Source: Bolinopsis microptera
Lineage: Eukaryota; Ctenophora; Tentaculata; Lobata; Bolinopsidae
Reading direction: 5' to 3'
DNA length: 64,000 nt
Assembly: GCF_026151205.1 (NCBI RefSeq)
Contig: NC_087077.1
Coordinates: forward strand, 11,816,983 to 11,880,982
Shown: piece by piece, positions 4,742 through 61,325 of the stretch
Numbering within the stretch: the first letter of the stretch is position 1
How the letters are laid out: each line of letters opens with the position of its first letter
Notes under the pieces: generated by a model
Told to the model about the DNA's origin: nothing
Database searches by the model: none
Seen by the model: only the letters and a program-made list of their open reading frames with translations
Translations under genes and position numbers: made by a program

Positions 4742-4839
4742 GTAGTATTACTATTTTGGGGGGGGGGTGTCACGTCCGTCTATGTCCGCCTATGTCCTGT
4801 CCTTTTTGGATTCTATGAGACAACGGACGTGTTTTTTGG

Positions 4840-5030
4840 GACATTGGCGGACACAGACGGACATTGGCGGACTCGGACGGACATTGGCGGACACGGACGG
4901 ACATTGGCGGACTCGGACTGACATTGGCAGACTCGGACGGACATTTGCGGACCCGGACGGACATTGGCGGACTCGGACGGACATTGGTGGACATTAGCGG
5001 ACATTGGTGGACATTAGCGGACAAACATTT
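4840..5030. repeat. 20-bp minisatellite (GGACATTGGCGGACACGGAC)
   Basis: About nine copies of a GGACATTGGCGGACACGGAC-type unit with A/T and C/G variants. The inverted counterpart with a related 10-bp unit lies at 8627-8763. The open frames here are by-products of the repeat. Confidence 0.9.
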
Positions 5031-5147
5031 TGAGAATTTTTCGCAACTTCTATGACTATGTATTATAATTTTGTACAAAACAAACGACTTATTAATCACA
5101 CTAAAGCTATTAATAGCTTTAACTTATTATATCAAATTATATAGGGA

Positions 5148-8100
5148 CCCAGGAAAAGGCCCCAGGAGGAGGAGGAGGAGGAGGAGGGACTGGGGGGAGG
5201 AGAGGGACTGTTGAGGACTGTTGAGGACTGTTGAGGAGGACTGAGGACGAGGAGGAGGGAGTAGGAGGAGGACTGAGGAGGGGAGGAGGAAGAGGACTGG
5301 GGAGGTCAGGAAGACCAGGAGGAGGACTCAGGAGGATGACTCAGGAGGAGGAGGACTCAGGAGGAGGACTGAGGAGGACTGAGAAGGAGGAAGACTGAAG
5401 AGTACTGAAGAGTACTGAGGAGGATGGCTGTGGAGGATGGCTGAGGAGGATGGCTGAGGAGGATGACTGAGGAGGATGACTGAGGAGGATGACTGAGAGG
5501 GACGAGGAGGATCAGGAAGACCAGGAGGAGGAGGAGGAGGACCCAGAAGGAGGACCTAGGAGGAGGAGGAGGAGAACTGAGGAGGATGACTCAGGAGGAG
5601 GAGGACTCAGGAGGAGGCCGAGGACTGAGGAGGACTGAGAAGGAGGAGGACTGAGGAGGATGGCTGAGGAGGATGGCTGAGGAGGATGACTGAGAGGGAG
5701 GATGAGGAGGAAGAGGAGGAGGAGAAGGGCTGAGGAGGAGAAGGAGACCCAGGAGGAGGAGGACCCAGGAGGAGGAGGACCCAGGAGGAGGAGGACCAGG
5801 AGGAGGACCCAGGAAAAGGCCCCAGGAGGAGGAGGAGGACTGGGGAGGAGGAGGACTGTTGAGGACTGATGAGGAGAACTGAGGACAACGAGGAGGAGTA
5901 GGAGGAGAACTCAGGAGGATGACTCAGGAGGAGGAGGACTCAGGAGGAGGACTGAGGAGGACTGAGAAGGAGGAGGACTGAGGAGGGTGGCTGAGGAGGA
6001 TGGCTGAGGAGGATGACTGAGAGGGAGGAGGAGGAGGAAGAGGAGGAGGAGAAGGACTGAGGAGGAGAAGGAAGACCCAGGAGGAGGAGGACCCCAGGAG
6101 GAGGAGGACCCAGGAGGAGGAGGACCCAGGAGGAGGAGGACCCAGGAGGAGGACCCAGAAAAGGCCCCCAGGAGGAGTAGGAGGACTGGGGAGGAGGAGG
6201 ACTGTTGAGGACTGATGAGGAGAACTGAGGACGAGGAGGAGGAGTAGGAGGAGGACTGAGGAGGGGAGGAGGAAGATGACTGGGGAGGATCAGAAGACCA
6301 GGAGGAGGACCCAGGAGGGGGAGGAGGAGGAGACCCAGGAGGAGGAGGAGGACCTGAGGAGGACTGAGGAGGAGGACTGACGATCAGACGATGACTGAGA
6401 AGCAGGAGGACTGAGGAGTACTGAGGAGGATGGCTGAGGAGGAGGCTGAGGAGGATGGCTGAGGAGGATGACTGAGGAGTATGACTGAGAGGGAGGAGGA
6501 GAAGGACTCAGGAGGAGGACTCAGGAGGAAGAGGAGGAGGAGGACTTAGGAGGAGGACTTAGGAGAAATGAGAAGGAGGACTGAGGAGGAGGAGTAGGAG
6601 GAGGACTGAGGAGGGGAGGAGGAAGAGGACGGGGAGGGTCAGAAGACCCAGGAGGAGGACTCAGGAGGATGACTCAGGAGGAGGAGGACTCAGGAGGAGG
6701 ACTGAGGAGGACTGAGAAGGAGGAAGACTGAAGAGTACTGAAGAGTACTGAGGAGGATGGCTGAGGAGGATGGCTGAGGAGGATGGCTGAGGAGGATGAC
6801 TGAGGAGGATGACTGAGGAGGGTGACTGAGAGGGGACGAGGAGGATCAGGAAGACCCAGGAGGAGGAGGAGGAGGGACCCAGAAGGAAGGACCTAGGAGG
6901 AGGAGGAGGAGAACTGAGAGGATGACTCAGGAGGAGGAGGACTCAGGAGGAGGACTGAGGAGGACTGAGAAGGAGGAGGACTGAGGAGGATGGCTGAGGA
7001 GGATGGCTGAGGAGGATGACTGAGAGGGAGGATGAGGAGGAAGAGGAGGAGGAGAAGGGCTGAGGAGGAGAAGGAGGACCCAGGAGGAGGAGGACCCAGG
7101 AGGAGGAGGACCCAGGAGGAGGAGGACCCAGGAGGAGGACCCAGGAAAAGGCCCAGGAGGAGGAGGAGGACTGGGGAGGAGGAGGACTGTTGAGGACTGA
7201 TGAGGAGAACTGAGGACAACGAGGAGGAGTAGGAGGAGAACTCAGGAGGATGACTCAGGAGGAGGAGGACTCAGGAGGAGGACTGAGGAGGACTGAGAAG
7301 GAGGAGGACTGAGGAGGGTGGCTGAGGAGGATGGCTGAGGAGGATGACTGAGAGGGAGGAGGAGGAGGAAGAGGAGGAGGAGAAGGACTGAGGAGGAGAA
7401 GGAAGACCCAGGAGGAGGAGGACCCAGGAGGAGGAGGACCCAGGAGGAGGAGGACCCAGGAGGAGGAGGACCCAGGAGGAGGACCCAGGAAAAGGCCCCA
7501 GGAGGAGTAGGAGGACTGGGGAGGAGGAGGACTGTTGAGGACTGATGAGGAGAACTGAGGACGAGGAGGAGGAGTAGGAGGAGGACTGAGGAGGGGAGGA
7601 GGAAGATGACTGGGGAGGATCAGGAAGACCCAGGAGGAGGACCCAGGAGGGGGAGGAGGACTGAGGAGGACTGAGGAGGAGGACTGGACGATCAGACGAT
7701 GACTGAGAAGGCAGGAGGACTGAGGAGTACTGAGGAGGATGGCTGAGGAGGATGGCTGAGGAGGATGGCTGAGGAGGATGACTGAGAGGAGGAGGAGGAG
7801 GGACTCAGGAGGAGGACTCAGGAGGAAGAGGAGGGAGGAGGACTTAGGAGGAGGACTTAGGAGAAATGAGAAGGAGGACTGAGGAGAACTGAGGAGGAGG
7901 AGGAGGAGGAATGAATAGGAGGAGGAGAAGGAGGGGGACTGGGAGAGGACTAAGGAGGAGGAGGACTGATGAGAAGGAGGACTGAGGAGGAGGACTGAGG
8001 ACCGAGGAGGAAGAGGAGGAGGATGAGAGGAGGAGGAGGACCCAGGAGCGAGGAGGACCTGAGGAGGAGGACTGAGGAGGACTGAGGAGGACTGAGGAGG

Positions 8101-8494
8101 ATGGCTGAGGAGGATGACTGAGAGGAAGAGGAGGAGGAGGAGGAGGACTGAGAAGGACTGAGGAAGACTGAGAGGAGGAGGACTGAGGAGGAGGAGGACT
8201 GAATAGAGGAGGGCCGAGGGGCGGAGGAGGACTGGGGAGGAGGAGGACTGTTGAGGACTGATGAGGAGGACTGAGGAGGAGGATGGAAGAGGAGGAGGAG
8301 GACCCAGGAGGAGGACCCAGAGGAGGACTCAGGAGGAGGAGGACTGGGGAGGAGGAGGACTGTTGAGGACTGATGAGGAGGGACTGAGGACGAGGAGGAG
8401 GAGTAGGAGGAGGACTGAGGAGGGGAGGAGGAAGAGGACTGAGGAAGATCAGGAAGACCCAGGAGGAGGAGGAGGAAGAGTAGGAGGAGGAAGC
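5148..8494. repeat. 3.3 kb purine-strand minisatellite (GAGGAGGA-type)
   Basis: Almost pure A/G on the + strand with periodic CT or CC: short units such as GAGGAGGATGGCTGAG, GAGGACTGAG and GAGGACCCAG. There is a higher-order repeat of roughly 1.3 kb: the block with CCCAGGAAAAGGCCC recurs near 5145, 5810, 6165, 7140 and 7485. The serine/proline-rich minus-strand frames are translations of this repeat, not genes. Such tracts can form triplex or G-quadruplex structures. Confidence 0.95.
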
Positions 8495-8626
8495 ATCTAA
8501 ATTTTATTTCATTTTTGTCCGTTTTTGTCCGCTCTGTTTTTTGTCCGTTTTGAAAATATAGGGTACCAGACAAAAAACATGATCCCCCATATAACAGCAA
8601 AAATTGAACATTTTATTTAGCAATTT

Positions 8627-8763
8627 AGGTGTCCATTAATGTCCGCTAATGTCCGTTTATGTCCGTTTATGTCCGTCTATGTCCGCCTATGTCCGTCTAT
8701 GTCCGCCTATGTCCGTCTATGTCCGCCTATGTCCGCCTATGTCCGCCTATGTCCGCCTATGTC
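8627..8763. repeat. 10-bp minisatellite (GTCCGCCTAT)
   Basis: About fourteen tandem copies of GTCCG(C/T)(C/T)TAT and near variants. It is the inverted relative of the array at 4840-5030 and forms the right stem of the fold-back element. Confidence 0.9.
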
Positions 8764-9046
8764 CTGTCCTTTTTGGATTCTATGAGACAAGCGGACATAG
8801 ACGGACGTGACACCCCCCCCCCCCCCCCTATTTTGCACAGATCCGTGTCAGGTTGCATAAACCAATAAAACATATGGTTACATAGAAGTATACACGATTT
8901 TCAAATTCCTTACAGAATTATATTAACTGGGCGGCGCTCGGCAGTCGGCATGTCACTTCGCCATATTTGCATGTTTATATAAACAGTTAAGACTGGGCCG
9001 TCCCCAGGTTGTATGGAATATGATAAATACGCCATCACGGATCGGG

Positions 9047-46429: not shown

Positions 46430-48453
46430 ATGCCACTGAAGGGACGTGTCGTACAGCCTGTCAGAATATGTCAGATAAACCACATTACTGGACCTGCCGT
46501 GGAGTTGTCCTCCTCCCAGAACACCCACAACTTTGAGGAGACCACTTACATCTCCTTTGTTGGTTAGCTTATTTAAGATACTTGAATTCAACCAGTTCTC
46601 TGTTAACTGTAGTAAAGTATTTTCTGTTTTTTATTGGTTTCCCTCTCTTATAGAGGGTGTCAAGAGTCGGAAACTGCCAGCTGTTCTGACATTTATAGAC
46701 TTTAAGAAGGCTTTCGACAGTGTACATCGTGGGAAAATGCTAAAGATTCTAGAAGCTTACGGCATTCCAGTCAAAATCGTGCAGCTTATACGGCTCATGT
46801 ACGAGAAGACAATGGCCAAAGTTCTAACTCCAGACGGAGAAACTGAATTGTTCGAGATACTTGCAGGTGTGTTACAGGGTGATCTACCTTAGCACCTTAC
46901 CTCTTTGCAATAGTCATCGACTACTGTATGAGGCAAGCCATAGGCGATGATGCGGAGCGACTTGGACTCACCCTCGAACGTAGAAAAAGCAGAAGAGTGG
47001 GGCCCAAGATCATCACCGATGTGGACTTTGCAGATGATATAGCACTTATATCTGAGGACATGGACAAGGCTAACGAGTTCCTGCTCAGAGTAGAATCGGC
47101 GGCAGCAAGCGTGGGACTACACATAAACGAAGGCAAGACCAAGGTCATGACACTGAATATGGAGGATCAATCTAGCGACCTACAAAGTCGATCCGGGGAA
47201 GCCATAGAAAATGTAGATGATTTCATCTGCTTAGGCTCCTGGATTGAGAGCACAGATAGGGAGATAAGGGTTAGAAAGGGAAAAGCGTGGGGTGCCCTAC
47301 ATAGACTGAAGGATATCTGGAAATCCAAACTGTCAAAGAGCCTAAAGATTAGATTGTTCATAGCGGCTTGTGAATCAGTACTGCTCTACGGATCAGAAAC
47401 CTGGACACTGACAAATGCTCAAGAGAAAAGTTTGGACGGGACATACACAAAGATGTTGCGTATAGTGCTGGGTATCTCATGGAAGGACAAGGTCAGCAAT
47501 ATAACTTTGTATGGTAGCCTCCCAAGGCTGTCAAACAAGTTACGAAGCAGGAGATTAAAAATGGCGGGACACTGCATCCGACATCCTGAGCTACTTGCCA
47601 GTGATTTAGTCTTATGGGAACCTACGCACGGTAGAGCACAGCAAGGCCGACCAAGACAAAGCTACTTGTCTATGTTACTGAAGGAAGTTGGGACAAACTC
47701 TAAAGAGGAACTGCGAACCCTGATGCGGGACAGGGATATATGGAGGGGGTTTTCTGGCGTAGATCGGACTTAGCTCCGACATAGTAGTAGTCCCTCTCTT
47801 GTTTCTGAAAACTTCTTACAATTTCACCCACTCCCAGGTGTAATGAAGCAGCTCTGTGACATAGCGGCTTTTGCAGATGAGATGTTCACTAATTTACATA
47901 CTATCGCTAAAGAGTGAGCTTTCTTTTATTTTAGCTTTTTAAATTGAGATATTTCTTAGTCGAATCATTGAAAATCTAACTGAATTGAATTTCCAAATAA
48001 CCTTAGATATTAAAACCACAATATATTCTGCAGCACGGTCGATAGAACAAATAAATTGCACAACAAAGTGAAACTTTTGAACGAGTGTTTAGTAAAAAAT
48101 ACTGAGATAGAAATATCTGAGCCAGCAAATGGTCCAGGGTTAGTGAACAAGAAGCAGTCTCTATTCTACAAGGACACCAGGCCTAGTGCTGTGAGTAAAG
48201 TTTACATTTTATATCAAAATAAATAAAATAAGTTTAAACATTAACTGTACAACTGGTTGATTGCCTCATAATTCTTTCTAGAACTGTTACACCAAAAATA
48301 CATGTTAAGAATCCTCCTTTTCGAGCAGAGTACTGCCTTCAAACAAATTTATTTCAGATAAAGGAGAAGTATGAAGCAATGGAGAAAACCCCGCCTCTGC
48401 ACCAGTTTCTGGACCTGATGAGTGTAGATGATGTCCAGGCCTCACAACCACAT
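46430..48453 (+). CDS. WASF exons 1-4, WAVE homology domain
   Basis: These exons encode residues 1-154. Exon 2 contains VMKQLCDIAAFADEMF, matching the family pattern (I/V)xQLxxxxxxAExxF. Exon 4 ends with PPLHQFLDLMSVDD, like the PPPLNxLTPYRDD segment. In known WAVE complexes this part binds Abi and HSPC300 and anchors WAVE to Sra1/Nap1. All four exons are mirrored in the left arm. Intron 1 here holds a 1.1 kb RTE-like insertion; the three following introns or gaps are short (120 to 167 bp between exons 2, 3 and 4). Confidence 0.9.
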
Positions 48454-50653: not shown

Positions 50654-53600
50654 GCTGCTACTCACCTTCTTCACTATGCCTAGACTTTAGATGTTCCCTG
50701 GGCTGGCCGACCTTGGGGACTTTCCCTCACGGTACACCAACACAATGTTACCATGGTAACACCACAATGTTACCATGGTAACACCACTACTGGACCTCAC
50801 GGTACAGGGAAATTGGGACTGTGAGATAAATAAAATGACACCAGAAAAAGGTTAACCACGTTATTGCTGGTGACTGGTAACGCTGAGAACCCTTATAATA
50901 ATATTTTAATCTCTTAAAAGGGACGGAAACTGGTTTAAAACTTTAAACTCCTCCCTAATACAGCTGTGTAATCTGTAACCTGTATACAGATTGCACAGAA
51001 GTCGGCCCTTGTTCGAACCTGGATATGATAACCATTACTGGGGGGGGGGGGGGGGGGGGGGGGGCGGGGGAGGGGGGGGCATTACTTCTCCAACATACTG
51101 TTAGAAACATTAAACATTACCACCAGTGTCCTGCGTGTTTTGTAGTGTAATGACTGTGGAAGTAACAAGACACCAGTTGCAGTTAAAACATGTTTAACAT
51201 ATTCTGACAAAGTTGATAATAATTTTAAACAGGTTTATGAAAACCCAAACAACTCTTATTGATTACATCATATTGTCAATATTGACACATTGTGTACAGG
51301 GTGGACTACTAGTTTTAATGTGGACAATTAAAGAATTTAACGTAATCACAGTACACGTTAATAAGTCTACACTGTTGCTATGGCTACACTGCAGTTGCTC
51401 AGCTACCGATCTAATTCATAAGTCTCATGAGGGCTAATACTGGAGTAGCAGGGTGCTACTAGAGTATGACCGACTCAATCTGCTGATTTAACTGCCCTTT
51501 ATATTTCTTTACGTCACCTTTGACTGTTCCTTCTTGTTTCAGTGGTCACCAATCACCATGTAGTACAGTAGCTATAATAGTTAACATTAGTTCCGGAATT
51601 AGCTCCGAAAACATTGTAATTGTTTGATAATGGGAGATGTAGTTGATGTTAAGATCTCATCTGCTTGTCATGTTATTGTTGTGACACTTTCTGTAAAGTA
51701 TTATCCTTTTCACCTGGTGAGTCAAGTACTACTTACTAAGTTACTAAGTTACTTAGTTACTAAGTTACTTAGTTACTAGGTTACTTAGTTACTAGGTTAC
51801 TTAGTTTCTAAGTTACTTAGTTACTTAGTTACTTAGTTACTAGTGTTGAGGTTAGTAGTATAATAGCATATCCTACAGAGATTGATAAAGATTTATCTAA
51901 AGCGAGCATTCTTATTTCTTGGAATTGGGGTCACAGTACTGCTGAATTTCTCATATAAAAACTTATATAAAACATGTAAAAATACTAAATATAAAGGAAC
52001 TAAAAATAGTTGACGTACCAACGTCACCGTAACAACTTGCACGACGCACTAACGCACGTTTGAAGGCATTTAACGTATCAAATATCAGGAGAAGGAGAAT
52101 ATCAGGCTCATTTGTCTTCATTCTTGATCAGATTCCTCCAGCACCACATTCTCTACATTTTATGTGTATTCCACTACTACTATGTCGGAGCTAAGTCCGA
52201 TCTACGCCAGAAAACCCCCTCCATATATCCCTGTCCCGCATCAGGGTTCGCAGTTCCTCTTTAGAGTTTGTCCCAACTTCCTTCAGTAACATAGACAAGT
52301 AGCTTTGTCTTGGTCGGCCTTGCTGTGCTCTACCGTGCGTAGGTTCCCATAAGACTAAATCACTGGCAAGTAGCTCAGGATGTCGGATGCAGTGTCCCGC
52401 CATTTTTAATCTCCTGCTTCGTAACTTGTTTGACAGCCTTGGGAGGCTACCATACAAAGTTATATTGCTGACCTTGTCCTATTCCAATACACACGCAACA
52501 AGGCTACAATTGATATCTAGGAATGTGTACTGAGTCTGAAGGAGTGCTAGTGTTGAATTCTTAAATTAGGTTTCTTGCGAATGTATGACATTAGCTCATC
52601 TTATTATGTCTCGGATTATGGAAATAGCAATTTTCCCTTGGCGTTGTATTTTGGGTCCCGTAATAAATTTATAAAATGTGATTGAAAACTATATAACCCA
52701 GTCTCTGGTGTAATTTTAAAATAAACGATGTGTTTAAAGTGTAGTAACTTTTCTTCACAATTTTCAGAAACTCTACTCTGATCCCTCTCTCTTCTTCACT
52801 GCCTGGGTAGATCTAATGGAGAAGGAGAATCACCAGTTCAAGAAATCAAGGAAACGTTCCTTCAAGAAGACAGACAAAGATGCCCAACTCACCAAGATAG
52901 CCACCCTCAAGAAGAAAGTGCACGACCCTAAAACTAAGAGGTACATAATGGTGGACTTGGAGCCGCAGTACGCCACACTGAAGGGCGCGCGAGCCATCAC
53001 CCCGGAGATGCCAGTGTCGGCTACTTTGAACAGGAAGAAATATGGGAATCTACCGCTACCTCCTCTACCAAGTAAATATACACATATTATGACGTCACCA
53101 TGGTAACACCTCGTTAATTACCTGGTTAAAATACTTAAATAAGTAGTAAATAGTAAAATACCAGGGGGTCCTTTCCGAAAAAATGTTTAAGGGGGCCGGG
53201 GGGGGGGGGGGGGGTCTTCATCAAAATTCTCTCGAAATTGATTTTATAGTTGTTTCTGATAGAGGGGAGTGATATCTATCAGCTGCTTTTGGTCCCATGG
53301 AAAAATATTGTTCCTAGCCGAAATTATCGCTGGTCAAAGGTCAGCGCTCACATGTAATTGTATTGCGCGAGCGATTTTCAATCTGGAAAAATCGTCAAAA
53401 AATGAGGTCCAAGATTTTCAAAATCGATTTAAAAATTTTCTGAGGCCTATCTCAAAATTCGGCACGATACTTCTCTTCTAATGGATCCCTAGAACATATC
53501 CTGAAAGTTTCAGGGTGATTGCTCAAAAAATGTAGGAGAAGATAGATTTTTAGAGTCGATTTTCAGGACACGTTTAGAAATGCACTTAAGTACACGTGTA

Positions 53601-56600
53601 AAAGCCGCGCTAAAACTCTGACCATTTCTACACACGTGCTGCGCGTTCTGTATGCAATTTGACGGTTTGATCCAGTGAACGCGTCATGTCTTGTGATTTC
53701 TAACTGGTTGTTAGTTTATCATGTTTCTTCATTTCTGTCTTGTTAGGTTGTCAATTATCATGTCACAAAGCGGTAAAAGGAGTCGAAATTTCACTGATGA
53801 GGAGAAGGAGCTCCTCATCCAGCTGGTACAAGAGGACATCAAGGGGCCAAACATACTGTTTGGTAAGTTTTCTAGCCTCATCACGAAAAGGAAAAAGGGA
53901 GATAAGTGGCAACACGTCGCAGATGAGATCAACGGGAAAGGTGATAGGACGGCTATAATAGACGTCAAAAAAAAGTATCAAAACTCGTCCACTGATACGA
54001 GAAAGAAAGAGCGGGCAAGAAAAAAACACGCATCAGGAACGGGTGGAGTTCAAGTTTTCAGATTCTGAAAATCGAATCCTTGCCACAATGGCAGAAGAGC
54101 AGATTTCCGGGATTAACGGTGGTATCGATAGTCAAACCACCACTACCGTGGTATATGAAAAATATTTTTTGCTTAACTTTTTACTTAAGTAACATTTTTG
54201 ACTTAAGTATCGTTTCGGAAAGAACCCCCAGATAAATAATGTCAATCAATTTTAGTTATCTCAAAGTAAAATATGTGCTCAAGTTACAACTCATACAATG
54301 GAATACATAATGTCACGGTCACGGTAACACAATGATCTCAACTTTGTTATCTAAAAACGTATCATTATGGATAATAAAATATCATTTCCTTGTTTTTCTA
54401 ACAAGTAACAAGTAGTACCACATACAATTCAACAGTTTACAAGTTACACCAAGGTAATGGAATACATAATGTCACCATGGTAACACCACATATCACCTTG
54501 GTAACACCACATGTCACCATGGTAACACCACATGTCACCATGGTAACACGACATGTCACCATGGTAACACCACATGTCACCATGGTAACACCACATGTCA
54601 CCATGGTAACACCACATGTCACCATGGTAACCACTACATTACAGCTGGAGAGAGTGTGAACACCACGCCTACAGACTCCTACTTGTCACCAGAGAGACAG
54701 ACCAACGAGAACCACTACAGACAATGCAGCACTCCCATAGCTTCTCCTCCTGACACTCAGATCCAGATCACATCTCCTGCTGGTGAGTAGTAGTAGTTAA
54801 TAGAGTTTCTCCTGCTGGTGAGTAGTAGTAGTAAATAGAGTTTCTCCTGCTGGTGAGTAGTAGTAGTAAATAGAGTTTCTACTGATGGTGAGTAGTAGTA
54901 GTTAATTGAGTTTCTCCTGCTGGTGAATAGTAGTAAATAGATTTTCTCCTGATGGTGAGTAGTAGTAGTAAATAGAGTTTCTCCTGCTGGTGAGTAGTAG
55001 TAGTAAATAGAGTTTCTCCTGCTGGTGAGTAGTAGTAGTAAATAGAGTTTCTCCTGCTGGTGAGTAGTAGTAGTAAATAGAGTTTCTCCTGCTGGTGAGT
55101 AGTAGTAGTAAATAGATTTTCTCCTGCTGGTGAGTAGTAGTAGTAAATAGATTTTCTCCTGCTGGTCAGTAGTAGTAGTAAATAGAGTTTCTCCTGCTGG
55201 TGAGTAGTAGTAGTAAATAGAGTTTCTACTGATGGTGAGTAGTAGTAGTTAATTGAGTTTCTCCTGCTGGTGAATAGTAGTAAATAGATTTTCTCCTGCT
55301 GGTGAGTAGTAGTAGTAAATAGAGTTTCTCCTGCTGGTGAGTAGTAGTAGTAAATAGAGTTTCTACTGATGGTGAGTAGTAGTAGTTAATTGAGTTTCTC
55401 CTGCTGGTGAATAGTAGTAAATAGATTTTCTCCTGCTGGTGAGTAGTAGTAGTAAATAGATTTTCTCCTGCTGGTGAGTAGTAGTAGTAAATAGATTTTA
55501 TCCTGCTGGTGAGTAGTAGTAGTAAATAGATTTTCTCCTGCTGGTGAGTAGTAGTAGTAAATAGAGTTTCTCCTGCTGGTGAGTGATTATGATCGAGATT
55601 CTGTGAGAATCCGGTCCAGGAAAGTATATTAATAAATATAATTAGACGCTTATTAAAGATAATATTGGAACTCTCACACGTTCCTCTCAGAGATAGAGAT
55701 AAGTGTGCCGAGTTTTACAACTAACAGTGACCAGACCAACACCTTCTCTCCACCTCGAGCCCCTCCTGCTCCCCCTGCTCCCCCAAGTAACCATGGTCAC
55801 GGTCCTCCAGCTCCCCCTGCTCCTATGGCTCCTCCTGCTCCTATGGCACCTCCTCCACCTATGTTAAACCGACCTCTACCTTCCAGCCCACCTGGTGAGT
55901 GTTTCACATCCACTTCATGCTCACCAATTTCGCCCTCAAGATTAGCAATCTTTGTGACGAGAATGAGAAAAGTTTGGCATTTTTAAATCTCAAAATTAGA
56001 ATAGAGTAAACAGTTCAAAGGCTGTTTGGTTCCCGTTCCTATGTACATCATCATCCTTCACCTAAAATTCATTACTCTTCAGTATTTATACATTATGAAT
56101 ATTTATTGAGTTAGATCCTACCTCATTTTAATTTACTAGGAATGTTAATTTTTTACTTGATCACTTTTATTTTGACAAAACGTTATAACGTTTTGTTAAA
56201 TCAAATAACTATTGAAGTACCTAATATTGAATCTCCCCTATTAAATCTACCTCCCCCTATTGAATATAACCCCCTCCCTCCCCGCAGCGGAGTCTCCATC
56301 TAAACGAGCAAGTGTGCCGCCTCCCTTCATGCCGCCACCAGTACCAGAGCTAGTTCTCAAACCAGCCAAACTGACGGAAGCACAGCGTGTCCTGCGCACT
56401 AAGGAGGTTGCAACGGCGCCCGGACGGAACACTCTCCTGGAGATGATTAGATCTAGCAGCTTTAACTTGAAACCTGTGGAACTTCAGCAGGTGAGAGTTG
56501 TTATTGAACTTCAGCAGTTGACAGTTGTTATTGAACTTCAGCAGGTGGGAGTTTTTATTGAACTTCAGCAGGTGAGAGTTGTTATTGAACTTCAGCAGGT

Positions 56601-57277
56601 GAGAGTTGTTATTGAACTTCAGCAGGTGAGAGTTTTTATTGAACTTCAGCAGGTGGGAGTTTTTATTGTCCTAGTGATATGTTTTAAAGTGCCAAAATTC
56701 AACCCTGAATCTGCAACCCATCGTGAAATCCGCCGATTCCACGATGGAATCTGAAATAATCCAGTATATTACTAGCCAGCCTGACGAGACTGAATTTAAC
56801 ACAGAGCTGTTGGGTTCTGTTACTCTTGCTGTGCTTGCATCTCTAGTGAATAACTGACTTTGCAACGCCTTTATTGTCATGTTAATATGCATACTGCATG
56901 CTTCAACTACCTGGCTTTGTATTTCTGGTCAACTTTCAGTTATTAATACTTTAGATAACGTTTTTCTAGGTTTATCTTTAGGTTATACATTTTATCATGT
57001 TCTCAAGTTTATAGAATTGCAGATATGTTTGATAATATATCAATAGATAGTTAAAATAAGTATGGCCTCTATACATCTGTGTAATGGCATAGTACTAAAC
57101 AAACCTGTATTTCAGACTATGAAGCAGGGTAAGGGTAACGCTGAGCCCACGTATGCGTCGTGGGGAGGCCGTGACGTAGCGTCCATCTTACAGCGCAGGA
57201 AGTACCTGATGGGAGTGGGAGACCACAGTGACTACAGTAGTGCCTCTGATAGCGAGGATGAAGGACAGTGGGACTAA
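46430..57277 (+). CDS. WAVE/SCAR family protein (WASF), nine exons, 490 residues
   Basis: Exons: 46430-46562, 47838-47913, 48034-48190, 48358-48453, 52768-53071, 54645-54782, 55691-55894, 56288-56490, 57116-57277. Together they make 1473 bp, with phases 1,2,0,0,1,1,1,0 all matching and GT-AG at every junction. The protein starts MPLKGR, as WAVE proteins start MPLVKR. Layout: WAVE homology domain (1-174), basic stretch KKSRKRSFKK (about 179-188), low-complexity linker (200-310), proline-rich segments (about 317-390), WH2 GRNTLLEMIR...LKPV (415-433), central helix DVASILQRRK (457-466), acidic tail SDSEDEGQWD (481-490) with the conserved penultimate Trp. The length is close to vertebrate WAVE2/3. 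Known role of the family: as part of the Rac-responsive WAVE complex, it activates Arp2/3 to build branched actin at the leading edge. The start codon was chosen for the MPL(V)KR match and phase. No 5' UTR exon was identified. Confidence 0.93.
46650..47790 (+). mobile_element. 5'-truncated RTE-like non-LTR retrotransposon in WASF intron 1
   Basis: Inserted between 10-bp duplications TCCCTCTCTT (46640-46649 and 47791-47800). The left arm has a single copy (about 18555). The frame shows TFIDFKKAFDSVHRGKML, then VLQGD, then the catalytic DFADDIAL (about 47030-47050), then the C-terminal KMAGHCIRH and WEPTHGRAQQGRPRQ. A two-base insertion near 46886 separates the first RT segment from the rest. 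There is no endonuclease. The 3' end is a short TAGTAGTAG run, as in RTE-type elements. The RTE clade is inferred from RT wording only. Confidence 0.85.
46928..47773 (+). pseudogene. reverse transcriptase C-terminal ORF of the RTE-like element
   Basis: 281-residue open frame with the FADD catalytic aspartates near residue 36 and a long C-terminal region (SETWTLTNAQEKSLDG, GISWKDKVSN). The upstream RT motifs are in another frame (46621-46892), so the enzyme is broken and 5'-truncated. Confidence 0.85.
50618..50656. repeat. (CT)n microsatellite
   Basis: About 15 CT units in WASF intron 4. The left-arm match at 3841-3850 has only about five GA units. Confidence 0.9.
51042..51080. repeat. G-run of more than 35 bases with two interruptions
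   Basis: Nearly uninterrupted guanine run in WASF intron 4. Similar runs lie at about 4759, 11199, 14586 and 53200 (G) and 8813, 12641, 16010, 30121, 58316 and 60144 (C), usually at or within mobile elements. Confidence 0.9.
51720..51845. repeat. minisatellite (ACTTAGTTACTAAGTT)
   Basis: About eight units built from GTTACT(A/T)AG and its variants, in WASF intron 4. Confidence 0.9.
52174..52479 (-). mobile_element. RTE-like 3' fragment in WASF intron 4
   Basis: Reverse-strand copy of the last 300 bp of the element at 46650-47790, almost identical in sequence (KMAGHCIRH, GRPRQSYLSMLL). Target duplication TATTCCA (52167-52173 and 52480-52486). It starts CTACTACTA, the complement of the TAG tail. 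It is severely 5'-truncated. Confidence 0.85.
52768..53071 (+). CDS. WASF exon 5, end of WHD and basic region
   Basis: Residues 155-255. It begins KLYSDPSLFFTAWVDLMEKE, the counterpart of the FYTNPSYFFDLWK motif of animal WAVEs, followed by KKSRKRSFKK, a basic stretch expected to contact phosphoinositides. It is the first exon outside the duplicated arms, so the reversed copy lacks it. Confidence 0.9.
53161..54231 (+). mobile_element. Harbinger-like element carrying a Myb/SANT gene
   Basis: Ends: CCAGGGGGTCCTTTCCGAAA and, inverted, TTTCGGAAAGAACCCCCAG, both followed inward by TTAAG-containing sequence. A 3-bp ATA flank on both sides may be the target duplication. It contains the Myb/SANT-like frame below but no DDE transposase, so it is an incomplete PIF/Harbinger-type element. 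It lies within WASF intron 5. Confidence 0.6.
53760..54068 (+). CDS. Myb/SANT-like DNA-binding protein of a Harbinger-type element
   Basis: 102 residues starting MSQSGKRSRNFTDEEKELL. The pattern FTDEEKELLIQLVQE...ILFGKFSSLITKRKK...KWQHVADEIN...VKKKYQN is that of the Myb/SANT-like (trihelix) proteins encoded next to Harbinger transposases, where they help DNA binding and nuclear import. The family usually continues with a segment like the one found one frame away at about 54050-54135 (ILATMAEEQISGINGGID), so a single-base frameshift near 54050 has probably shortened it. Confidence 0.65.
   Translation: MSQSGKRSRNFTDEEKELLIQLVQEDIKGPNILFGKFSSLITKRKKGDKWQHVADEINGKGDRTAIIDVKKKYQNSSTDTRKKERARKKHASGTGGVQVFRF
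54470..54631. repeat. 21-bp minisatellite with CACCATGGTAACACC
   Basis: About eight copies of a 21-bp unit around CACCATGGTAACACC, ending 14 bp before the exon 6 acceptor. The GTTACCATGGTAAC core also occurs at 3731, 50747-50783, 53096 and 57522. Confidence 0.9.
54645..55894 (+). CDS. WASF exons 6-7, linker and proline-rich region
   Basis: Exon 6 (54645-54782) is a polar linker (SYLSPERQTNENHYRQ). Exon 7 (55691-55894) encodes alternating proline blocks (APPAPPAPPS, GPPAPPAPMAPPAPM), expected to bind profilin and SH3 domains. The exon 6 donor (CTGCTG|GTGAGT) is the first member of the tandem donor array that fills the intron. Confidence 0.85.
54771..55585. repeat. 35-bp minisatellite repeating the exon 6 splice donor
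   Basis: About 24 units, mostly 35 bp, with the core CTCCTGCTGGTGAGTAG. The first unit is the real exon end plus 5' splice site (54783), and the array fills the first 800 bp of intron 6. Most units keep GGTGAGT; variants read GGTGAAT or GGTCAGT. A higher-order block (CTACTGATGG followed by a shorter GGTGAAT unit) recurs at about 54876, 55226 and 55366. Confidence 0.95.
56288..57277 (+). CDS. WASF exons 8-9, WH2-central-acidic module
   Basis: Exon 8 (56288-56490) ends with the WH2 motif and LKPVELQQ. Exon 9 (57116-57277) carries the central helix, acidic residues and terminal QWD, then TAA. This module binds monomeric actin and Arp2/3. If the donor at 56491 is missed, the frame reads on through in-frame 9-residue repeats (ELQQVRVVI) up to a stop at 56752, giving a protein without the Arp2/3-binding end. 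Confidence 0.9.
56479..56667. repeat. 27-bp minisatellite repeating the exon 8 splice donor
   Basis: Seven exact 27-bp periods of GAACTTCAGCAGGTGAGAG plus GTTGTTATT. The first unit is the end of exon 8 with its donor at 56491. Five or six units keep CAG|GTGAGA or CAG|GTGGGA; the second has CAGTTGACA. The unit is a multiple of three without stops. Confidence 0.95.
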
Positions 57278-57410
57278 TTTTGAGACTACAGTGACTACAG
57301 TAATACTTCTGATAATGAGGATAAAGGAGAGAGGGACTAAATTTGTGACTACGGTCTATTGTACAACGCAGGAAATATTTGATGGGAGTGGGCGACCACA
57401 GTGGTATCAC
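57222..57410. repeat. tandem degenerate copies of the WASF terminal exon end
   Basis: GAC(T/C)ACAGTGACTACAGTA...TCTGATA.(C/T)GAGGAT in exon 9 (57222-57277) is followed by a second copy (57285-57342, ending GAGAGGGACTAA) and a third, partial copy (57352-57410, GTACAACGCAGGAAATATTTGATGGGAGTGGG). They lie in the 3' UTR. Confidence 0.8.
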
Positions 57411-57674
57411 GTGATGCCCATATAAGGTAGTGGCGACTGTACTCTGTACTCTGTACTCTGCAATGGTTTTGATAGTGAGGGAAATAATTGTGGTCAGTTT
57501 AAATTCGGGAATGTAGTGGTGTTACCATGGTAACGAAAGCTTGAGGGCAATGACTATGTAATAATGTATAGCCTTTAAATGAAATTATAACGATATATAT
57601 TTAGATTTTAACATGAGAATTTATTAAGCAAATTTATATTAATACACGTCAATTTGTATATGTTAAATTTCTAT

Positions 57675-57680
57675 AATAAA
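57675..57680 (+). terminator. polyadenylation signal AATAAA for WASF
   Basis: AATAAA about 400 bp after the stop codon, the first clear signal downstream in AT-rich 3' sequence. Confidence 0.5.
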
Positions 57681-57699
57681 ATATTTGAATCACTTTTAT

Positions 57700-58235
57700 T
57701 GCACGTCATCGTCAGTTGAAACTAGCTGTACTGCAGATTAACCTGAATCTTGTGGTCACAAAAACACGATGTTAAATACATTTGTACACACAATGCTGAC
57801 AGCTTTTCATCAGACTACTATATATGTAACACTACTGCCACGTCAAGTATAGGGAGGGCATGATTTAATGGTACATCTGGCTTCATGCCAGGGAATTATA
57901 TTCGAGTGGACTGAGCACTTACGCGGGAAAGTAATTATAAAGTTTTTGTGGGAGAAACTTGTGCCTAGTTTTTTAAAAAGTCCGGGCTAGAGGCTTAAAT
58001 AGTTTACATTTTTTCAAGTCATTGATTGACGCTATTTATCACACAGATTGTGAAGATTTATTGTAGTTTTAAAAGAAAAATTCTTAACATTTTATCTTTT
58101 TTAGATCTAAAGTTTAATTCAAATTTCAAATTGATTGTACCCATTGGAGTAAAAATTATATCACTTCTTCATGATATTTTTTGTTTCTTTTTGTCGGGCT
58201 GAAAAAAAGAAATGGTTTACAAATGAAGACTTCTT
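57700..58235. other. intergenic, nothing recognised
   Basis: AT-rich with no coding or repeat structure that I can support. Confidence 0.35.
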
Positions 58236-58400
58236 AGGGGTCGTTCACATATTACGTAATCAATATTTTGGCAATTTTTACCCCCTTCCATAATCAACCG
58301 TAATCAAGACCCAACCCCCCCCCCCCCCCCCCCCCCCGTAATCAACCGTAAGCATTTGGAAACCCCCCTCAGCTGATTACGTAATATGTGAACGACCCCT
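58236..58400. mobile_element. 165-bp MITE, AGGGGTCGTTCACATATTAC ends
   Basis: Inverted ends AGGGGTCGTTCACATATTAC and GTAATATGTGAACGACCCCT, with an internal C-run (58316-58337) and GTAATCAACCGTAA. A related 481-bp element is at 59750-60230. Ends of the GGGTCGTTCA(C/T)A...TTACGTAA type are widespread in invertebrate MITEs; the superfamily is not assigned here. Confidence 0.75.
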
Positions 58401-58419
58401 TAATGTATCTCATTATTCT

Positions 58420-58497
58420 AGGTGTGACCTGTTACCTGGCAATCTGGTAACCTGTTGCCTGGCAACCTGGTAACCTGTTACCTGGTAACCTAGTGTT
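58420..58497. repeat. minisatellite (CTGGTAACCTGTTACCTGG)
   Basis: Three to four units of CTGGTAACCTGTTACCTGGC with C/T variants. Each unit contains small inverted repeats (GGTAACC). Confidence 0.85.
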
Positions 58498-58499
58498 AA

Positions 58500-59520
58500 T
58501 GATTATCATCATTATCAACTGCAAGATCAAATCAAATGATGACATGACACAAACATCGTCATCATAAATATAAAATTTTAGGTTAACTAACTATACTAGT
58601 TCCACTCTATATTTAAGTTAATTAAACGTTTACAGAAAAACAATTGTAATATAAGTTTTCAAGTAATTGTCAAGGAGGTGGTCCCCAGATTGTGTAATTA
58701 CCGTGAATATTTCTACTTCTAACCTTCTTGATAGGTTTAATACTCATTACTCAATAGGTAAGTTCGGCACTTCATACTTAAGCTGTGTAATATGAGCTCA
58801 ATTTTAATGAATCGAAGGCTTTTTTAGTAGCTTGAATAATCTAAATTACTTATTTTGATATTAAAAAGACAGGGTCATTGTACTTCAATAGATCGCCCAA
58901 CTGGATATTCCAGTCTAATTCAGTAAAATTGAAATGATTTAACGTCACTAATCACTACTGTCTATAGTGTCATACAGTCGTATGTCGGTAATACTACCTC
59001 AAATCTCCCTAAGATTCTCTAATCATAAGAGTCTGAGGGGCCTGAGGTGCTGATCTTCACTTTTTCAGTAACCCTAAGCCACTCTGTGCCGAGGCACTAT
59101 ATAACTATATAAGCTGTAGGGGGGTAAGTCCTACGAGCCAGAGTGTGTATCACCAGCCGAAGCTGTACCAAATCACAGCTTGATAACTGGCCGACTTGCA
59201 TCCGACCGGAGAATGCCCGGGTTTTTAGTGCATACTATTGTTTAAATGTAAGCTTTTCATTGGAATGACGCGGTTCTAACATAACTGTGTTTGAATGTAA
59301 TTTTGTAGGATCGTGAGAATATGTTTGTGACAAATTAATGATCCCGTGCATCGCTTTTAAACCTTATGTCATTTAGTTCTATCAATCGGTCATTTTAAAT
59401 GCTCTAATGACAGGTGTTACATGTTTGAACAAGGCTATAACCCCACATTTTAAGTGTACAGATGAATCACTTTCAGGAAGCGGCGATATGTTTAAACGCA
59501 CACTTCTCGGCGCCAACTTC
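58500..59520. other. intergenic; TATA-like segment near 59100
   Basis: Mostly AT-rich non-coding. ACTATATAACTATATAAGC at 59097-59115 looks like a TATA region, followed by GTAAGTCCTACGAGCC and a GC-rich stretch to 59220. This could be a promoter or part of an LTR, but nothing else supports either. Confidence 0.25.
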
Positions 59521-59545
59521 ATATGTGTGCGCGCGCGCGCGCGCA
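59520..59545. repeat. (GC)n microsatellite
   Basis: TGTGTGCGCGCGCGCGCGCG. The overlapping arginine/alanine frames on both strands come from this repeat and carry no motif. Confidence 0.85.
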
Positions 59546-59749
59546 GAGCTGCCAAATTGCACGCATCATATACACGATATTTCACGGTGGAAAATATCAA
59601 CTTAATAACACCAGAATGTCTGTGTGTCTGTGTGTCCGAACGGTTATACAAAAAAACGGTAATAGTTACGGGACTGGTTTTTTTCGGTATAGTGCTGACA
59701 AAACTCTGACGAAGCCCATAAGCAAATTTATAAAAATCGGCCGGTGGTA

Positions 59750-60230
59750 AGGGGTCGTTCACATATTACGTAATCAATATTTTAGCAATTTTTACCCCCT
59801 CCCCCCTGCCGTAATCAACCGTAATCAACACCCAAACCCCCCCCCTCCTGACAGCAATATTACGTAATCATGGCCTGACCCCCCCCTTTTTTTTCCCTAG
59901 AAAACACTTTTCTCTACGTTTCATGCTACCCTGATCATGCTATCATGATGAGCCGAAATCATTGTTATGATATCCGGCCAAGCACCTTCTAAACTACTTA
60001 CTATTATATCCGGATATTCGATCAATTTCTAAATTTTATCACTATCAGAGTGAAATTGAGTGGAATTTGAATTAAAATATTGTCAAATTGTTATTATTCT
60101 AGAGGGTAAAAAAGAAAAGTTTGACGTAATCAACGACCGAAACCCCCCCCCCCCCCCCCCGTAATCAACCGTAAGAATTTGGAAACCCCCCTCCCCCCTC
60201 GGCTGATTACGTAATATATGAACGACCCCT
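59750..60230. mobile_element. 481-bp MITE related to 58236-58400
   Basis: Same ends (AGGGGTCGTTCACATATTAC / GTAATATATGAACGACCCCT). It contains extra internal GTAATCAACCGTAATCAAC and CCCCC blocks near both ends, so it looks like a nested or internally duplicated member. Confidence 0.7.
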
Positions 60231-60239
60231 AAGTGGTTT

Positions 60240-61325
60240 AATTGATGATTTTGTTCCAGAAATGTGACATAAATGGATGGGAGAGAGAACGAGGAGGATA
60301 GCATGTACCGTAATTAGTTTAGCCCCACGTAATACTATAAGCTTAGAGCTCACTCTTGCGGCCGGTTTGTTTCATCTGTAGGGAGATTTCATACTTTCAT
60401 AAGACAGCGTTATGCGTGATATCAAATATATAATGCGGTTGTATACTTTTACATTGCAACTGTGACAGTAAAGTCCCGGCCGAAGGCACGGGTTACACTA
60501 GTAATACAATAATACCTTGGCTGCTTCGGGCCGCTCGTGATAATTCCCGACAGCTTGCTGGAGGGAATTTGCGGCCCAAAGCAGCCAAGGTACCTTCCGG
60601 GAATTATATCCACTAAAAGTCTCGGACACTAAGAGCTGATAATTTGCACATTTTTCCCGCAAGAGAAGCCAAGGTATTATCAGCATAGACTCAGACTGGC
60701 TGGCGGCAAGTTGTAAAACAAATAACACTGGCGTTCTATATATTAGACACTATATTGTATCATGCGCATGTATCGGATTACACCCCTTCCAATTTGAACC
60801 GGAAAATATCATATATACTATACATACCATAGATTTCTCACTCCGTTACGTCCGTTACGTCAGTGCAGTAGATGAATTCAAAAATTTGTAACCAAATGGG
60901 GACAAATTATAAACATGATTTTGGGTGGTTTTTTAATCTCCAACTTCTATTTAACAGGTATTTAAACTTAGTTGCTACAGTAGTACTGCTATTATGATCC
61001 CTCATGATTGTTTTTAACAAAATTTGTTCATGATATGAAAAAATGAACGATCAAATCGACGACAATAAAGAGGGACCACTGTTGGTGGTCCATTATTAAC
61101 TCTTTCCGACCAATTTTGAACCATTCTGTGTGTTCTTTTTATTATTACTATTTGTCCCCTGGTTCCAACTTGGTTCCAATTCCAAAAATCCGGATTCATC
61201 AACTCCGTCCGTGACATCCCACTCCCAGCAATACAAGCAGTTTTACAGATTTTAGTCAGCTAAGTAAATTTACCCACAATGCACAATGCGCATGAGATAA
61301 ACGAGAACCGCTACGATTGTTACCG
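60240..61325. other. intergenic with one inverted repeat
   Basis: TACCTTGGCTGCTTCGGGCCGC at 60512 pairs with GCGGCCCAAAGCAGCCAAGGTA ending at about 60593. AGCCAAGGTATTATCAGC follows at 60666. It could be a small MITE; no target duplication was identified. Confidence 0.4.

Follow-up and report, generated by a model that had tools for sequence, protein, structure and literature searches.

A tandem repeat across the exon 8 donor of a WAVE/SCAR-like gene in the ctenophore Bolinopsis microptera: most likely an ordinary border-spanning minisatellite

In the window analysed here, a stretch of 64,000 nucleotides from the ctenophore Bolinopsis microptera, one gene carries a minisatellite that repeats the end of exon 8 together with its 5' splice site. 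Such an array raises two questions: are the repeated donors used as alternatives, yielding proteins of different length, and why does the repeat lie across an exon-intron border at all? A preliminary description of the locus had suggested that each downstream donor would insert nine residues, and that a mechanism with a preference for exon-intron borders, or selection, stands behind the arrays of this gene.

The gene hosting the array

By sequence resemblance, the gene that hosts the exon 8 array looks like a WAVE/SCAR-like actin regulator. The exons referred to here are the following (a slash within a splice site marks the exon end):

52768 to 53071, plus strand: WAVE-like exon beginning with KLYSDPSLFFTAW, phase 0 in and phase 1 out, splice signals assigned by eye
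54645 to 54782, plus strand: exon 6, donor CTG/GTGAGT, phase 1 in and out, assigned by eye
55691 to 55894, plus strand: exon 7, proline-rich, phase 1 in and out, donor without an array, assigned by eye
56288 to 56490, plus strand: exon 8, end of the proline-rich stretch and WH2-like motif, ending ...FNLKPVELQQ, phase 1 in and phase 0 out
57116 to 57277, plus strand: last exon, TMKQ...DVASILQRR...EDEGQWD and stop, central/acidic-like by motif

When two upstream exons were joined, a PDB search identified chains of WAVE1 (7usc_C, E 0.0068; 3p8c_D, E 0.0094), followed by a third and last match that is unrelated (E 1.2). The second of the two, at 52768 to 53071, had no match by itself, the joined WAVE exons matched no family in Pfam, and PDB and Pfam searches with the C-terminal part of the gene returned no relative. 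In this C-terminal part, we take NTLLEMIRSSSFNLKPVELQQ and TMKQ...DVASILQRRKYLMG...SEDEGQWD to contain WH2, central and acidic motifs. On this assignment, the intron after exon 8 separates the WH2-like motif from the central-like helix, and the insertion site named in the preliminary description fits this intron position. A Pfam search with the read-through version of exon 8 gave three unrelated weak matches below the cut-off.

The 27-bp array at the exon 8 donor

The features of the exon 8 array are:

56479 to 56668, plus strand: exon 8 array, 27 bp x 7, first 12 nt exonic (TRF)
56488 to 56495, plus strand: donor 1, CAG/GTGAG, presumed main donor from phase and frame
56515 to 56522, plus strand: copy 2, CAG/TTGAC, dead donor
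56542 to 56657, plus strand: potential donors, after 56544, 56571, 56598, 56625 and 56652

Tandem Repeats Finder (TRF) reports a period of 27, 7.0 copies, 93% matches and a score of 331: the seven periods of the preliminary description are there, but they are not exact, as the copies have four variable columns with seven codon differences to the consensus, none of which is synonymous. Unit 1 opens with the exonic 12 nt GAACTTCAGCAG, reaches the exon end at 56490 and contains the donor CAG/GTGAGA, so that the unit does span exon end plus 5' splice site, as had been described. Copies 2 to 7 lie downstream of donor 1, in sequence that reads as intron. GT is retained in copies 1 and 3 to 7 and absent from copy 2 (CAG/TTGACA), and the predicted duplex with U1 has -1.6 kcal/mol for copy 2, compared to between -10.3 and -11.1 kcal/mol in the remaining six. 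The six donors with GT are thus nearly equal in U1 pairing and the site itself does not favour donor 1. When equal donors compete in mammalian extracts, it is often the intron-proximal one that is favoured, which speaks against the choice of donor 1.

The period of 27 is divisible by three and the reading frame of exon 8 runs through every copy without a stop, as previously noted. The usable downstream donors would add 18, 27, 36, 45 or 54 amino acids. With the donor of copy 2 dead, no junction is expected after 56517, the 56518 of the preliminary description, and an insertion would have at least 18 residues, never nine.

A second donor array in the same gene

The donor of exon 6 at 54782 is also covered by an array:

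54773 to 55584, plus strand: border array of exon 6, 23.5 copies of 35 bp, 92% matches (TRF)

Its sequence is unrelated to that of the exon 8 array and each of the two straddles a donor of the same gene, consistent with the earlier observation of two independent donor arrays in one gene. Of 24 sites counted in the exon 6 array, 20 are GTGAGT, three are GTGAAT and one is GTCAGT. With a period of 35 bp and a stop only 5 nt downstream of donor 1, this array cannot lengthen the protein.

Donor arrays across the genome

We scanned the genome (264,652,675 bp in 232 contigs) for donor-like motifs that occur three times in a row and used, as control, the same pattern read backwards, also across the whole genome. 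Matches exceeded the reversed control for GGTRAGW (11473 versus 5075), CAGGTRAGT (681 versus 7) and AAGGTRAGT (578 versus 28); all these figures are match counts, in which long arrays weigh heavily. Minisatellites as such (period 10-100, at least 2.5 copies) are abundant: TRF on eighteen 10-kb samples (180 kb, GC 39.0%) found 46, which is 256 per Mb and 8% of bases, and the 64-kb window has 13. Among the 46 randomly sampled arrays, GGTRAGW is present on a strand in one and the reversed motif in none; the upstream side of this one array is not clearly coding.

The flanks were read for all 11 GGTRAGW arrays and all 14 CAGGTRAGT arrays among the matches listed, and for six of the nine new AAGGTRAGT arrays (11 among the matches listed, two of them met before). 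Within these matches, a coding-looking exon end adjoins 4/11 GGTRAGW arrays (L025, L026, L028, L031), 7/14 CAGGTRAGT arrays (L034, L038, L039, L040, L044, L045, L047) and 2/6 AAGGTRAGT arrays (L049, L050), and border evidence was absent from 7/11 GGTRAGW and 7/14 CAGGTRAGT arrays. The remaining AAGGTRAGT loci are L051 and L052, with no coding sign in their flanks, and L048 and L053, for which the sequence examined stops short of the array start. L046, with a 79-aa open frame before the first donor-like site, was left out of the border set, as were L023 and L027, which are apparently intronic, shortly after an exon. The border set thus defined has 14 independent arrays: the two WAVE arrays and 12 others, L044 and L045 being counted as one paralogous pair. 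A genome scan, as the preliminary description had called for, did find further arrays at coding-looking exon ends, 12 of them independent.

For several of the compared exons, coding status is judged from an uninterrupted frame, the phase and resemblance. The stronger cases are L044 (open frame of 99 aa, conserved in two copies), L040 (78 aa; Pfam WD40_MABP1-WDR62, E 6e-5, below the curated cut-off), L028 (76 aa; Pfam Hydrolase_4 at only 0.17; no match in PDB), L025 (70 aa; Pfam Sushi at 0.043 after an unrelated C2-set_3 at 0.038, both below cut-off), L038 (172-aa open frame, partly low-complexity, with unrelated weak Pfam matches only), L049 (64 aa with ATG) and L026 (55 aa). We take the exons of L028, L049 and L026 to be ABHD17-like, DPH2-like and LRRCT-like, respectively. 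Weaker cases are L031, L034, L039, L047 and L050. The Pfam search found no family for L026, L039, L044, L047, L049 and L050, and unrelated weak matches only for L031 and L034. In the 90 nt upstream of donor 1, GC averages 0.50 at 12 border loci (L044 and L045 both included) and 0.43 at 15 others (L028 still among them), and with a p of 0.053 this does not clearly split border arrays from the rest.

L044 (C9:1817300) and L045 (C9:1884300) are paralogous loci that share a 34-bp donor border array of 13.1 and 14.1 copies; the array therefore predates the duplication or accompanied it. What is presumably one ABHD17-like gene (L027/L028, C1:912500-922500; also L023, C1:6500-9500) has an intronic array soon after an exon (L027, with a second copy in L023) and a border array about 7 kb further on (L028), and is possibly a second gene with two donor-side arrays.

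Frame, period and position of the border arrays

Among the 14 border arrays, a stop precedes donor 2 in 11, donor 2 shifts the phase in L025 and L034, and WAVE exon 8 is the only one that is in frame at donor 2. With donor 2 frameshifted or behind a stop in 13/14, the genes with these arrays should depend on the first donor. The periods are 27, 35, 34, 43, 35, 28, 25, 20, 41, 29, 34, 32, 38 and 23 (the 35-bp period of L028 was taken by eye or from TRF): one of the 14 is divisible by three, compared to 4.7 expected by chance (P for one or fewer 0.027). Selection for in-frame units, one form of the selection proposed earlier, is therefore unsupported for the class, and the in-frame period at WAVE exon 8 looks like a one-in-three chance.

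The arrays include between 2 and 34 exonic nucleotides, and an even spread of the array start over the unit is not rejected (KS p 0.69, n=14; for L049 and L050 the overlap was taken by eye or from TRF). A fixed start within 15 bp upstream of the donor, the range that the preliminary description had named for a scan, thus does not hold up, and a fixed offset is unsupported, because the amount of exon in the array varies across the full length of the unit, as random seeding predicts.

Acceptor borders and expectations under uniform seeding

Acceptor-like tandem triplets are also in excess (1383 versus 199 in the control). Eight of the 17 places with acceptor-like arrays among the matches listed were examined: L060 and L067 have coding-looking borders, L061 is doubtful, L062 to L064 have none, at L065 the sequence stops short of the array end, and L066 carries both signals. 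The acceptor array of L067 adjoins a thrombospondin type 1 exon (Pfam TSP_1, E 2.9e-15, above cut-off). A mechanism restricted to donors is weakened by these acceptor arrays.

In L066 (C4:6878150-6878850), a 46-bp array, the unit consists of the acceptor-like TTTTCCAG, 25 nt and the donor-like GAG/GTGAGT; this arrangement suggests a repeated would-be micro-exon.

How often should arrays meet borders by chance? If the 46 sampled arrays were seeded uniformly, any one base would fall within an array's first unit with a probability of 0.0059, or 0.0025 for the 18 arrays with a period of 15-45 and at least three copies, and the chance that a gene with eight introns has two or more border donors is 0.001. 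Multiplied by hand with an assumed number of about 19,000 genes, this predicts about 20 such genes; Mnemiopsis leidyi has 18,972 genes, according to the accessible part of PMC11797021. Two arrays at donors of one WAVE-like gene do thus not call for a mechanism that prefers exon-intron borders, as had been proposed. Four border arrays were counted in the initial 2.7 Mb of C1 (95% interval 1.1-10.2; L031 is weak), compared to about one predicted by hand on the assumption of five introns per gene and of 30-50% of donors fitting the motif. The counts allow a modest, few-fold border preference and do not establish one; seeding at random is enough in a genome this rich in minisatellites.

Origin and use of the exon 8 array

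The exon 8 array is most likely a border-spanning minisatellite that was seeded by chance, with the first donor productive and the remaining copies spliced out as intron. In a genome dense in minisatellites, a short tandem duplication would by chance have captured the final 12 nt of exon 8 together with the donor. A duplicated unit of this kind brings its own exon end and donor, and would leave the gene undamaged; the array may then have grown through slippage or unequal exchange. Donor 1, adjacent to the exon, would stay productive, and the six other copies would leave with the intron. A quite different possibility is that several of the donors are in use, so that WAVE isoforms would gain 18 to 54 residues between WH2 and the central helix, tuned by the length of the array. 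The frame that is open in all copies and the six donors of similar U1 pairing would permit this, and permit it at only this one of the 14 border arrays, but the copies differ by seven nonsynonymous and no synonymous changes and thus show no sign of peptide constraint, the donor of copy 2 is dead, in-frame units are not generally favoured (1/14 periods divisible by three) and the gene's other array, at exon 6, is incapable of it; we consider such isoforms improbable. Its more far-reaching form would have hundreds of donor minisatellites in ctenophores, a spliceosome that elsewhere picks the first donor by a rule of its own, and a length-variable splice ladder at WAVE exon 8. This is very improbable; if it were true, the copy number of an allele together with its intact donors would set the spacing between actin binding and Arp2/3 binding in WAVE.

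Chance seeding is also preferred over a mechanism, be it transposition, an R-loop or spliceosome-linked repair, that targets exon-intron borders and seeds arrays there. The marked surplus of consensus donors among tandem triplets, the acceptor-like triplets that exceed their control (1383/199) and the two arrays in one gene would all be expected from such targeting, but donors exceed reversed motifs simply because donors exist, the array starts are spread over the unit, and the four arrays counted in 2.7 Mb of C1, compared to about one predicted by chance, establish no preference: targeting is unlikely, if less so than the use of several donors. That the array is an assembly artefact is hardly credible, although the contig holds a second, noisy copy of the region with 82% identity at a distance of about 80 kb. 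This copy (L021, C6:11788000-11797999) corresponds to 51267-60995 of the window, with indels throughout, and continues with about 0.9 kb without match and then 207 bp at 99.5%; it looks like an unpolished gap fill or a duplicated allele. As described in the accessible part of PMC10232365, gaps of the Bolinopsis microptera assembly were closed with TGS-GapCloser (a tool for error-prone long reads, by its title) and the assembly was then polished; such gap filling could be the origin of the noisy copy despite the subsequent polishing. The noisy copy, which is the one other copy of the exon 8 array among the best-scored candidates and of doubtful origin, can also be aligned to each of the seven 27-bp units, with small indels, and similar arrays exist at other loci; both argue against an artefact. 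A 701-bp junction query for a retrocopy found, among the best-scored candidates, only the locus and its noisy copy.

Comparison with known systems

Tandem alternative donors a few nucleotides apart are few and close together. They resemble the exon 8 array in that neighbouring donors could give in-frame length variants, and the exon 8 array differs from them by having seven copies 27 nt apart.

Tandem repeats that span exon-intron borders have been named 'mirages' in amphioxus, in Adh3 and the globin genes BflGb6 and BflGb9 (PMC3087553, here from the accessible part of the text, which cites Canestro 2002 NAR 30:2871 for Adh3). The amphioxus mirages have units of 10-72 bp in Adh3, affect both 5' and 3' borders, as is the case here, and carry the splice signal in many units, though not in every one, like the exon 8 array; haplotypes with 6 and 3 units are described, and the authors conclude that the Adh3 data and RT-PCR suggest regular splicing (PMC3087553, same part). 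In Bolinopsis, the exon 8 array lies across the exon-intron boundary (56479-56668, exon end at 56490 from frame and phase), GT is present in 6/7 units, and both donor and acceptor borders are affected in the genome (L067 for the acceptor). Differences to amphioxus are the ctenophore host, the apparently many genomic places and an exon 8 case that is in frame. The exon 8 array is thus most likely an ordinary member of this little-known mirage kind, spliced from donor 1. The intron-gain model of Rogers (cited in the accessible part of PMC3087553; compare PMC4974935, also in part) likewise involves a tandem duplication with an AG/GT site, but at exon 8 the intron appears lengthened at its 5' end and none created. 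Intron gain by tandem duplication was accordingly rejected: there is one intron between exon 8 and exon 9, with matching phases.

A literature search for ctenophore minisatellites or tandem repeats at splice sites returned no relevant paper, judged from the accessible parts of the sources. New here are the ctenophore as host, how often such arrays appear to occur, and an actin regulator in which one of them is in frame. Mirages that look frequent so far from the lancelets suggest that genomes rich in minisatellites produce them as a general by-product, and that they are no peculiarity of cephalochordates. An array of near-identical donors offers a natural experiment on the choice among equal 5' splice sites, on intron lengthening and on border sliding, and the many loci with donor arrays are open to one RNA-seq test.

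Other repeats in the window

The palindrome GTYRCCATGGYRAC, which we take to resemble an RFX X-box, occurs 11 times in the window (0.00 expected in shuffles), always between 50747 and 57534 in or near the WAVE-like gene (54469-54639, 50747-50782, 53094-53107 and 57521-57534). Seven of the 11 belong to an array of 21-bp units whose end is about 5 bp upstream of exon 6. The palindrome was present in 3/67 loci examined, one of which (L001) is the WAVE-like region.

A 63-bp unit at 57219-57352 (2.1 copies) runs from the end of the last coding exon and the stop into the 3' UTR. The ORF at 46883-47773 on the plus strand is presumably a LINE reverse transcriptase, and an inverted copy of the 3' end of this LINE-like ORF is found at 52191-52478 on the minus strand; both are apparently located in introns of the WAVE gene. 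At 4839-8764 the window contains a degenerate GAGGACTGAGGAG-type array of 3.2-3.7 kb, flanked by GGACAT-type 10-bp repeats; this array is also present, inverted, at C6:15.0 Mb (L020, 4763-8995), and array and flanks are perhaps a dispersed compound repeat.
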